From positions 744,001 through 808,000 of the forward strand of contig NZ_KE136483.1 of assembly GCF_000407185.1 (NCBI RefSeq): a stretch of 64,000 nt of DNA, given 5' to 3'. Position numbers and translations under genes: made by a program. Source of the DNA: Enterococcus malodoratus ATCC 43197 (GTDB lineage: Bacteria > Bacillota > Bacilli > Lactobacillales > Enterococcaceae). Positions 60,234 through 62,580 of the stretch are shown here, piece after piece (positions within the stretch are counted from its first letter, which is position 1; each line of letters begins with the position of its first letter). The notes below the pieces were generated by a model, which was given only the letters and a program-made list of their open reading frames with translations, did not search any database and was not told where the DNA came from.

Positions 60234-60267
60234 CCCCTTGCTATACTATGTTGAAGGAGGCGATATG

Positions 60268-60711
60268 ATGGATACAAATTGGCAAGAAAAATTTTCAATA
60301 GACAATCAGCCGACACTAGAACAGATGAAGAAGTTTGGCGCTGATACATATTTTGAAAGACTATTAGATTATTTGTCTGAGGAGTACCAACCTAAATTTT
60401 CTATTGAATACTCAAAAGAAAAAGGAAAGTTCGGTGGTTGGCACTTAAAGGCTAAAAGATATGGTGGAAATTTTGGCACAATTTATTTTCGAGAGGGTTC
60501 TGTGAGGATGATGGTCGTTGTGTCGGATCTTTTTGAAGAAGAACTATCGGAAAGTATTCCTTTGATGTCTGAACAAGTGCAAAAAACATTTAATGAAAGC
60601 AAACCTGTCATGGGTGGATATTGGTTTATTGTCGATGCTAACTCTGAGCAGGCTTTTGAAGACCTCCAATATCTGATAGCTCTACGTGTTCGGAAATTAA
60701 GAAAAAAATGA
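60268..60711 (+). CDS. DUF3788-like protein
   Basis: A 147-residue soluble protein. The pattern around KFGGWHLKAKRYGGNFGTIYF, then VRMMVVVSDLFEEEL and GYWFIVDANSEQAFEDLQYLIALR, resembles DUF3788, a family of unknown function. Two adjacent ATGs (60265, 60268) follow GAAGGAGG; the second has the better spacing (7 nt), and a longer frame from 60238 crosses the ribosome site. It lies 34 bp after tsaD and may be transcribed with it. The family assignment is tentative. Confidence 0.7.
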   Translation: MDTNWQEKFSIDNQPTLEQMKKFGADTYFERLLDYLSEEYQPKFSIEYSKEKGKFGGWHLKAKRYGGNFGTIYFREGSVRMMVVVSDLFEEELSESIPLMSEQVQKTFNESKPVMGGYWFIVDANSEQAFEDLQYLIALRVRKLRKK

Positions 60712-60945: not shown

Positions 60946-60974
60946 TTGAGTAACAATCGTTATAAATTTATACT
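60946..60974 (+). promoter_or_regulatory. Promoter of the cystine symporter leader
   Basis: TTGAGT (60946-60951) and TATACT (60969-60974) are separated by 17 bp. Initiation near 60981 gives a leader of about 250 nt before the symporter. In the AT-rich 195 bp upstream (60751-60945) I see nothing else. Confidence 0.7.
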
Positions 60975-61016
60975 ATTTTTTGCAAGTGAAAGATAGCAAA
61001 ACGGAGGTGAAGGAAT

Positions 61017-61037
61017 ATGAGCTTACATCGAAATTGA
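61017..61037 (+). CDS. Leader ORF 1 (6 codons, MSLHRN)
   Basis: A six-residue ORF directly behind the perfect ribosome site GGAGGTGA (61003-61010). Such a strong site in a leader implies translation. It has no cysteine codon. It may load ribosomes onto the leader, or expose or mask the CTTAGA/TCTAAG hairpin (61056-61070) that abuts the ribosome site of leader ORF 2. The translation is inferred from the ribosome site. Confidence 0.5.
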   Translation: MSLHRN

Positions 61038-61081
61038 CTTTGATCAAAAATGGAACTTAGAGTTTCTAAGGGAGTAAATTC

Positions 61082-61153
61082 ATGTTCTTTACAAAAAGCC
61101 ATCGTTGTCAATGTGAAATCAATCACTTGCGGAACAAAAATGAAATCGCTTAA
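61082..61153 (+). CDS. Leader ORF 2 (23 codons, with Cys-Gln-Cys)
   Basis: A 23-residue ORF (MFFTKSHRCQCEINHL...) behind AAGGGAG (61069-61075). Cys codons TGT lie at 61106-61108 and 61112-61114. The eight bases 61120-61127, just after the second Cys codon, are complementary to the Shine-Dalgarno region of the downstream cystine symporter gene. The arrangement suggests a regulatory leader peptide that senses cysteinyl-tRNA. No similarity to a known protein was noted. Confidence 0.55.
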   Translation: MFFTKSHRCQCEINHLRNKNEIA

Positions 61154-61232
61154 TTGACGAATGCTTTATCTTTTGGAGACTCAGATTGAAAGATCGGTGA
61201 TCTTTAATAAACAATTTGAAATGGAGTGATTG
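61120..61232 (+). promoter_or_regulatory. Possible SD-sequestering helix of the cystine symporter mRNA
   Basis: CAATCACT (61120-61127, inside leader ORF 2) is the exact complement of AGTGATTG (61225-61232). With a G-T pair at each end the helix reaches 10 bp and covers the GGAG ribosome site of the symporter. A ribosome paused at the Cys codons six to fourteen bases upstream would block the first strand and free the ribosome site. Another hairpin, AAAGATC-GGT-GATCTTT, lies at 61188-61204. Confidence 0.5.
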
Positions 61233-61233
61233 G

Positions 61234-62580
61234 GTGTTATTAGCAGTATCTTTTCTTATCGTGTTAGGTTGTTTGTATGGTTTGATCTATTTAAAACAAA
61301 AAAAATGGTCTTTCTCTAAACGTGTCGTAACGGCTTTGGCTATCGGAATTATTTTAGGTTTGATCTTCAGTCAAGTGCTGTCAAAATCAGACGGTGTCAT
61401 TCTATCTGATTGGATCGGGATTATCGGTAGTGTTTATGTAAAATTATTACAAATGATTGCTGTTCCTTTAATTCTAGTTTGTGTTTTATTAGCGTTTACT
61501 AAGATTGAAATCAAAACAAATGTCTTGAAAGTTGGAATGTCGATAATTGGCACGCTAATCGTAACCGCTGGTATCGCAGGAATTGTCGGTATTATAACTG
61601 GTTACTTCTCAAATATCGACGGAGACTCTTTTAATATTTCGCAAACAGCGTTGCATTCAGCAAATGAGATTCAGCAAAGTTATGTTTCTGGCGGGGAACA
61701 AACATTGACGATGCCGCAAAAAATTATTGCGATTTTCCCATCGAATCCATTCTTTGATCTGACCGGTCAAAGGCCGAGCGCTACTTTAGGAGTAGTCATC
61801 TTTGCATTCTTTTTAGGAATTGCCTATTTAAAAATCAAGGATAAGAAAGTCAAAGAGGCTCAATTATTTAAGGATTTTCTTGATAGTGCTTATGAAATTA
61901 TCATGTCTGTAGTTCGTCTATTTATTTCTTATGCACCTTATGCTGTATTAACGATTATGACCGCAACCATTATTAATAATGATGTAACAGCAGTTTTAAA
62001 GTTAGCTAAATTCTTCGCGGTTTCCTATATTGGAATGTTGATCATGTTTTTAATTCAATTGTTGATTTTAGCAATTTGTGGATTGCCACCAGTTCGATAT
62101 TTAGCAAAGGCCTTTCCGGTTCTTTCTTTTGCATTCATTACTGCGTCGAGTGCCGGATCAATGCCGATGAATATTGAAATGCAGGACGAATTGAATATTC
62201 CGCGAGGAGTGTCAAGTTTGGCTGCTTCTTTTGCGACATCCATGGGAATGAATGGTTGTGCGGGGGTGTATCCAGGAATCATTATCGCCATTGTTGCTAT
62301 GACACAAAATATAAATCCTCTATCTCCGCAATTTTTACTTTACGCTGGATTCATTATTGCAATGACATCTTTCGGTATTGCAGGGACTGGCGGAGGCGGT
62401 ACGGTCGCTACGATCATTTCTCTATCAGCTTTAGGATTGCCAGTTGGATTGGTAGGAGTCTTTATTGCAGTGGAACCATTAATTGATATGGGGCGTACCG
62501 CAATTAATCTAAATGGCGGCGTAGTAGCCAGTGCGGTTACATGCAAGCTAAACAGGATTAAATTATCACAAGTGAAATAA
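61234..62580 (+). CDS. tcyP: L-cystine/dicarboxylate:cation symporter (TcyP-like)
   Basis: A 448-residue integral membrane symporter of the dicarboxylate/amino acid:cation family. Re-entrant loop motifs ITASSAGSMPMNIEMQDEL and GTGGGGTVATIISLSALGLP are visible, as are about eight hydrophobic segments. The N terminus (LIYLKQKKWSFSKRVVTALAIGIILGLI, read in parts) and the VKLLQMIAVPLILV segment resemble B. subtilis TcyP, a cystine importer. The GTG at 61234 is chosen because GGAG is 7 nt upstream; an in-frame TTG at 61216 lacks one. The leader suggests control by cysteine. Specificity is inferred. Confidence 0.8.
   Translation: MLLAVSFLIVLGCLYGLIYLKQKKWSFSKRVVTALAIGIILGLIFSQVLSKSDGVILSDWIGIIGSVYVKLLQMIAVPLILVCVLLAFTKIEIKTNVLKVGMSIIGTLIVTAGIAGIVGIITGYFSNIDGDSFNISQTALHSANEIQQSYVSGGEQTLTMPQKIIAIFPSNPFFDLTGQRPSATLGVVIFAFFLGIAYLKIKDKKVKEAQLFKDFLDSAYEIIMSVVRLFISYAPYAVLTIMTATIINNDVTAVLKLAKFFAVSYIGMLIMFLIQLLILAICGLPPVRYLAKAFPVLSFAFITASSAGSMPMNIEMQDELNIPRGVSSLAASFATSMGMNGCAGVYPGIIIAIVAMTQNINPLSPQFLLYAGFIIAMTSFGIAGTGGGGTVATIISLSALGLPVGLVGVFIAVEPLIDMGRTAINLNGGVVASAVTCKLNRIKLSQVK

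Follow-up and report, generated by a model that had tools for sequence, protein, structure and literature searches.

Several known regulatory and recoding systems each resemble the leader described here in part. In trp-type leader-peptide attenuation, as it is usually described, a short upstream open reading frame (uORF) carries critical codons, the position of the ribosome chooses among alternative helices, and a terminator lies at the end. The enterococcal leader is alike in its short uORF, where the critical codons are often tandem UGAs; ribosome position would likewise choose among the pairings A:B, B:C and C:D, and a terminator ends the leader in those copies where one was found. It differs in that UGA would be sensed as selenocysteine, which would need a SECIS hairpin and SelB, and in that it stands before numerous individual genes, not a single biosynthetic operon. 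The cysteine-responsive polycysteine leader ORFs of mycobacteria also place a codon-sensing leader ORF before sulfur genes, but they use standard Cys codons and involve no recoding.

A bacterial SECIS element is a stem-loop shortly downstream of the UGA with a G in the first two loop positions. Elements of selenoprotein genes such as GrdB and fdhF share with the enterococcal leader an in-frame UGA, a hairpin about 12 nt on and a small loop with G; the enterococcal hairpin differs in standing behind a uORF of 4-9 codons, whose product would be a short peptide and no enzyme. A SECIS-like element in the leader of E. coli selA is reportedly bound by SelB (attributed to Thanbichler and Boeck). There, too, a 5' leader hairpin reads the supply of SelB and Sec-tRNA, but the selA element is not known to have a decoded UGA, whereas the enterococcal leader has a UGA with an open frame before its hairpin and a terminator or an anti-Shine-Dalgarno (anti-SD) helix downstream. 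To our knowledge, the sensing of selenium by bacteria, and the adjustment of uptake to it, is largely an open question. Among the matches listed in a literature search on selenocysteine-dependent leaders or attenuators and on selenium in Enterococcus, a search that covered mainly freely accessible literature, we recognised no such system.

The leader precedes a symporter gene in a 64,000-nt stretch of the Enterococcus malodoratus ATCC 43197 genome, which in its entirety is called the window. From sequence comparison, we consider it likely that this leader is a selenocysteine-dependent attenuator whose sensor is the SECIS-directed recoding of UGA, and that it probably senses selenium and not cysteine, the amino acid named in the original prediction. 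The sequence supports a uORF, its UGA, an open frame beyond, a hairpin, a long helix P1, a shared set of downstream genes and the co-occurrence of the Sec machinery.

All features of the window leader lie on the + strand. A promoter-like site, TTGAGT-17-TATACT (60946..60974), matches the consensus; matches of this kind number 4 against 3.6 expected, which is chance level, and TATACT is retained in 8 of 9 aligned species. Next comes the conserved uORF, or ORF1 (MSLHRN-UGA, 61017..61037), with the Shine-Dalgarno (SD) site GGAGGTG read from the sequence at 61003..61009. Its first UGA (61035..61037) lies 18 nt upstream of the hairpin, and a second in-frame UGA two codons on (61041..61043) lies 12 nt before it, the distance seen in GrdB. 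The hairpin, CUUAGA-GUU-UCUAAG with 6 bp (61056..61070), was defined by alignment and resembles the GrdB hairpin CGUUGC-GGU-GCAACG. An alignment of nine Enterococcus species keeps ORF1, the UGA and the 15-base hairpin CTTAGAGKTTCTAAG (61056-61070), with a UGA-hairpin gap of 18 nt. Were both UGAs decoded, the read-through ORF would span 61017..61157 and end at the next UGA, 61155-61157. In helix P1 the 5' strand A (61000..61027), which covers the ribosome site and start of the uORF, pairs with the 3' strand B (61073..61107), which contains the ATG of a second short ORF, ORF2.

Further downstream lie a GUGA...UCAC stretch (61113..61126) with conserved letters, the anti-SD strand CAATCACT (61120..61127), and a hairpin AAAGATC-GGT-GATCTTT (61189..61205) that is followed by a T run in E. 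devriesei. The GUGA...UCAC stretch is, by eye, a possible alternative anti-SD partner; its pairing was not picked by the consensus fold of five species. The symporter ribosome site, with the strand paired by 61120-61127, was placed at 61223..61232 from the sequence and the consensus fold. The gene itself (61234..62580, GTG start at 61234) encodes an SDF-family symporter of 448 aa (PF00375, E=2e-81), for which no NCBIfam model scored above its cut-off; cystine or selenocystine may be its substrate. No classical terminator was seen in this symporter leader, and plain folding of the leader gave z -1.17. Upstream of the leader is a 157-aa ORF (window 60238-60711) with no NCBIfam match. A known riboswitch or leader family was ruled out for the window leader: no Rfam family exceeded its gathering score in the window, and a low-threshold search around the leader gave three weak matches, all far under gathering scores. 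Across ten copy-bearing loci, Rfam returned only a tRNA elsewhere in locus L040.

All 20 of the 20 genomes of the genus contain the 15-mer hairpin, at 48 places in total and 1-4 per genome. A covariance model built from 48 copies gave 87 matches in the same 20/20 genomes, at most 7 per genome with 7 in the window genome, and no match in the other 85 Enterococcaceae. We analysed 86 copies and left out one, L190 (genome G015), as degenerate; having lost the 5' arm of the hairpin, it is possibly a decaying leader. The exact 15-mer is also present in G034, G060 and G075 outside the genus, where the covariance model found no match; these were set aside, the loci in G034 and G075 after inspection.

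SelB (TIGR00475) scores above cut-off in 23 of 105 Enterococcaceae and tRNA-Sec (RF01852) in exactly those genomes, among them 19 of the 20 genomes of the genus; the exception, G014, has leader copies and is 78% complete. Four SelB-positive Enterococcaceae outside the genus have no leader copy by the model. In a sample of the order (395 genomes, 42 with SelB), all 9 genomes with a model match were among those 42, and 34 of the 42 held no true copy by the model; the match in G241 was judged spurious because it lies within coding sequence and has no hairpin. In a sample of the class (398 genomes), matches were found in G000, the window genome, and G111 only. Since 8 candidates per genome were scored in the order and class samples, misses are possible there. 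G111, a SelB-positive genome of another family, carries a true copy (L218:480-900) with MLVARQ-UGA, a second UGA, the hairpin at 18 nt and a P1 of -30.6 kcal/mol. It precedes what we take to be an osmoprotectant-type (OpuC/EgtU-like) ABC transporter, with a presumably rhodanese-like gene further on. A selB-containing selenium cluster was seen at L110 (G000:C2:1176000-1188036), L111 and L112. Beside selB in these loci are genes that we take to be selD-, yedF-, DUF3343- and NifS-type-like, together with a presumed selA-like gene in L111 and L112. The L111 cluster is followed by a desulfidase and ECF pair, a pair that in G006 and G013 carries a UGA-hairpin leader of its own (L086, L077).

In an effort to define the uORF in every copy, we used a rule that permitted any stop codon, preferred a spacing of 17 or 18 and required a Shine-Dalgarno-type site, a requirement that no copy failed; a looser earlier rule had led to different frames for a few copies (e.g. 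L072, L092). The copies fall into 11 classes by downstream gene, and since copies within a class are related, counts over the 86 are not independent. The uORF stop is UGA in 86/86 copies over all 11 classes; for comparison, TGA closes 4 of the window's 53 long ORFs. The uORFs are 4-9 codons long and start with ATG (65), TTG (15) or GTG (6). A second UGA, as UGA-NNN-UGA, is present in 74/86 copies, and the context is UGAC in 56/86. At the level of sequence, the leader thus has what an attenuator calls for, a putative leader ORF with critical codons.

The frame beyond the UGA is open. With UGA read as sense, a TAA or TAG occurs in the uORF frame before 30 nt past the hairpin in 0/86 copies, and in the other two frames over the same span in 67/86 and 77/86; when the span is extended to 36 nt past the hairpin, a stop appears in 1 of 48 copies (L090). 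If all three stop codons are counted, the frame past the UGA pair stays open through the hairpin in 86/86 copies, and in 76 its first stop comes no more than 60 nt from the hairpin. Spacing from the first UGA to the hairpin is 17 or 18 nt in 80/86 copies and in none falls in phase 1 (modulo 3), where the hairpin's own TAG/TAA would be in frame. Given the open frame and this avoided phase, ribosomes appear to have been selected to pass the UGA. An in-frame UGA lies 9-15 nt upstream of the hairpin in 80/86 copies, mostly as the second UGA at 11-12 nt; six single-UGA copies have theirs 11, 12, 14 or 15 nt before the hairpin, and in six further copies the UGA stands solely at 18 nt.

The long helix and its competitors were then compared by folding energy. 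P1 formed from a copy's own strands (A:B) averages -20.9 kcal/mol, against -15.4 when B is taken from other gene classes; the own helix is better than the class-foreign mean in 82/86 copies and beats 95% of class-foreign strands in only 42/86. A scan found a terminator-like hairpin within 200 nt in 51/86 copies. In 48 of these 51, the pairing B:C, where C is the strand at the terminator base, beats that with a letter-shuffled C. At the window symporter, constrained folding predicts the SD to be unpaired with a probability of 0.22 when the leader is free and 0.70 with a ribosome at the UGA; after read-through the value is 0.16 and the anti-SD helix stands at 0.95. For the four remaining orthologues, the anti-SD helix reaches at most 0.12 in every state and the SD follows no single pattern. 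Because the anti-SD helix is unpredicted in these four, and because a GrdB hairpin of G111 folds weakly (see below), we lowered the weight placed on both the attenuator and the regulon-switch readings.

We propose that a ribosome would start on the 4-9 codon uORF and meet the UGA, usually as UGA-NNN-UGA, and then the SECIS-type hairpin. With SelB and Sec-tRNA-Sec plentiful, UGA would be read as selenocysteine and the ribosome would cross the hairpin and strand B. With selenocysteine scarce, it would pause or end at the UGA near the uORF start, so that A is occupied and B free. In E. coli, Sec insertion at UGA was found to be selenium-dependent and slow, with a long pause (PMC4513850). Strand B could pair with A (P1) or, in terminator-bearing copies, with the purine-rich C at the terminator base, and ribosome position would select terminator or antiterminator in the manner of trp-type attenuation. 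The absence of a ribosome would give A:B and the terminator; a ribosome at the UGA would give B:C and antitermination; read-through would cover B and restore the terminator. In the case of the window symporter, control may act on the ribosome site, via the anti-SD helix, and this modelled step is the weakest of the proposal. Genes related to selenium and sulfur would be expected to be on when selenocysteine is short. What we infer in this scheme is that Sec is inserted at the UGAs, that selenium shortage turns the genes on, and how the symporter gene responds.

The same sensor might act with the reverse polarity, selenocysteine insertion turning genes on: read-through would stop B from entering P1, and the gene would open. 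The window anti-SD strand does lie inside the read-through ORF, and folding is not uniform among the orthologues; set against this, genes for uptake and mobilisation would be expected to rise on shortage, and a reading ribosome would block the B:C antiterminator pairing. We regard reverse polarity as unlikely and retain selenocysteine-dependent attenuation in the on-when-short direction.

The hairpin itself bears on what kind of signal is read. Most copies have the form CUUAGA-G(U/G)N-UCUAAG, and the first loop base is G in 84/84 copies with the 15-nt hairpin (6 pairs, 3-nt loop), the remaining two copies (L200, L212) carrying a 16-nt hairpin. The sixth pair is broken in 3/86, and L210 has two pairs changed on both sides, which amounts to compensation. 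The window hairpin is weak, with a pair probability of ~0.5 on its own in 45 nt. In L200 and L212, the leaders stand before a NifS-type gene of the cysteine desulfurase family, with a selenocysteine-lyase-like match below cut-off, and their 16-nt hairpin CTTAGAAGTTTCTAAG is a natural variant.

The window genome also offers selenoprotein genes for comparison: one PrdB-type and two GrdB-type genes with an in-frame UGA, which we take to be PrdB and GrdB (PF07355 being the family searched). In both GrdB genes the UGA is followed, after 12 nt, by CGUUGC-GGU-GCAACG, with pair probabilities of 0.98-1.0 in 45 nt; these letters are also under coding constraint. In G111 the GrdB gene carries those hairpin letters too, but there the hairpin has a probability of 0.4 and its segment has a better fold. 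In the PrdB gene of the window genome the hairpin is of another shape and lies ~16 nt after the UGA. Like a bacterial SECIS, the leaders combine an in-frame UGA and an open frame beyond it with a downstream stem-loop whose loop carries the G (84/84 of the 15-nt hairpins), at a UGA-hairpin distance found in the organism's own selenoprotein genes (12 nt in GrdB) and in hosts that encode SelB and tRNA-Sec (19/20 genomes of the genus). We take the leader hairpin to be a putative SECIS-like element, with SelB binding and Sec insertion in vivo as its predicted consequences. Coding constraint as an explanation of the hairpin was rejected, because spacings of 18 and 17 place the hairpin in two different reading frames and L210 compensates.

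Being palindromic, nearly invariant and present 1-4 times per genome of the genus, the 15-mer CTTAGAGNTTCTAAG might be read as the DNA operator of a sulfur or selenium regulator acting as a roadblock, with the uORF secondary. This is very unlikely given an in-frame UGA at a nearly fixed distance (17 or 18 nt, 80/86 copies), a read-through frame without TAA or TAG, the loop G that comes first in all 84 of the 15-nt hairpins, the compensated pairs of L210, and the like shape with a different stem sequence in GrdB genes. A SECIS-like element serving selenocysteine-dependent attenuation remains our preferred reading of the palindrome.

The genes behind the 86 leaders, classed by eye, are those for a secreted rhodanese (16), a double-cubane reductase (14), a window-type symporter (12), rhodanese lipoproteins in two classes (12 and 12), a MetQ/NlpA lipoprotein (9), a TVP38-like protein (3), a methionine gamma-lyase-like protein (3), a NifS-type protein (2), a TudS-related desulfidase with an ECF component (2) and a sulfonate-type ABC transporter (1). 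The TVP38 and sulfonate-type ABC names are our presumption from the appearance of the sequences. Representatives scored above cut-off for the double-cubane reductase, activase, TudS-related protein, ECF component and a cysteine desulfurase family (TIGR01977), and above the Pfam cut-off for rhodanese, NlpA lipoprotein and DUF169; matches to the methionine gamma-lyase, MetQ and selenocysteine lyase SclA models were below cut-off. The reductase gene directly follows the symporter gene in G006, G007, G011 and G013. Outside the genus, 11 reductase loci were inspected, one in the SelB-positive G088 and ten in SelB-negative genomes, and no such hairpin was found within the stretch examined. A methionine gamma-lyase-like gene in the set (L177, L199, L209) suggests selenomethionine as a selenium source. 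Table 1 of PMC5322559 connects selenium genes with subunits of 2-hydroxyglutaryl-CoA dehydratase, with a CoA-enzyme activase and with DUF169. Taken together, the downstream genes fit a role in selenium and sulfur supply. That Sec recoding at mostly tandem UGAs, with a SECIS hairpin, in leader uORFs serves as the switch for a selenium-acquisition regulon is, in our judgement, reasonably probable.

Sulfur metabolism among the target genes, together with a UGA in 86/86 copies and UGAC in 56/86, would also suit a sensor of UGA-specific termination, in which slow termination by RF2 sets the switch and selenocysteine plays no part, for example with RF2 under-methylated at low SAM. Such a sensor would not account for a read-through frame that is open, a GrdB-like hairpin at the GrdB spacing or the co-occurrence with SelB and tRNA-Sec, and we find it hardly credible beside SECIS-directed recoding.

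The original prediction had placed the sensor in ORF2 (MFFTKSHRCQCEINHLRNKNEIA, 61082..61153), a leader of 23 codons with TGT CAA TGT at 61106-61114, where a ribosome pausing on the CQC codons at low Cys-tRNA would free the symporter ribosome site. The parts it listed are present as described: the promoter-like site, two short ORFs with ribosome sites, the CQC codons, and CAATCACT (61120-61127) as the exact complement of AGTGATTG (61225-61232). When the leader was dinucleotide-shuffled 1000 times, a complement of at least 8 bases to the SD/start region arose in 17 cases, so the complement is modestly better than chance. Over five species, the pairing was kept in part: the six inner pairs stand in 5/5, with G-U variants in two of the five, and each of the two outer pairs is broken in 2/5. 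For the complete consensus fold of five close species, the covariation term was unfavourable (+2.4).

Conservation of ORF2 failed to bear the prediction out by the refuting condition set with the prediction itself, as its ATG and first Cys codon are missing in 4/4 close relatives, which read ATA, ATA, ATA and a gapped GT- at the former and TAT, TAT, CAT and TAG at the latter. The second TGT is retained in relatives, and sits in the TGTGA...TCAC stretch. The ORF2 ATG lies within the pairing partner of the ORF1 ribosome site, which may explain its being there. No uORF peptide among the 86 contains Cys. ORF2 was accordingly judged non-functional as a leader, and a cysteine leader was rejected as a conserved mechanism. 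Although ORF2, the anti-SD complement and the six inner pairs kept in five species speak for it, a cysteine-sensing leader is exceedingly improbable with its start and first Cys codon gone in all four relatives and no Cys in any of the 86 uORF peptides. What is supported of the predicted mechanism is a leader ORF controlling the downstream gene; ORF2 as the sensing ORF and Cys as the amino acid find no support. The conserved sensor is ORF1, with its UGA codons and SECIS-like hairpin, and this points to selenocysteine.

If selenocysteine-dependent attenuation is true of these leaders, they would be, as far as we found, the first ribosome-based selenium sensor of such a kind and, among attenuators, the first to sense the 21st amino acid; made from the recoding machinery, they would report directly on the supply of Sec-tRNA. 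The leader would also name candidate genes for selenium uptake and mobilisation, the window symporter included. These analyses suggest that UGA-SECIS units may be regulatory, beyond encoding enzymes, and searches aimed at selenoproteins may therefore miss such leaders.
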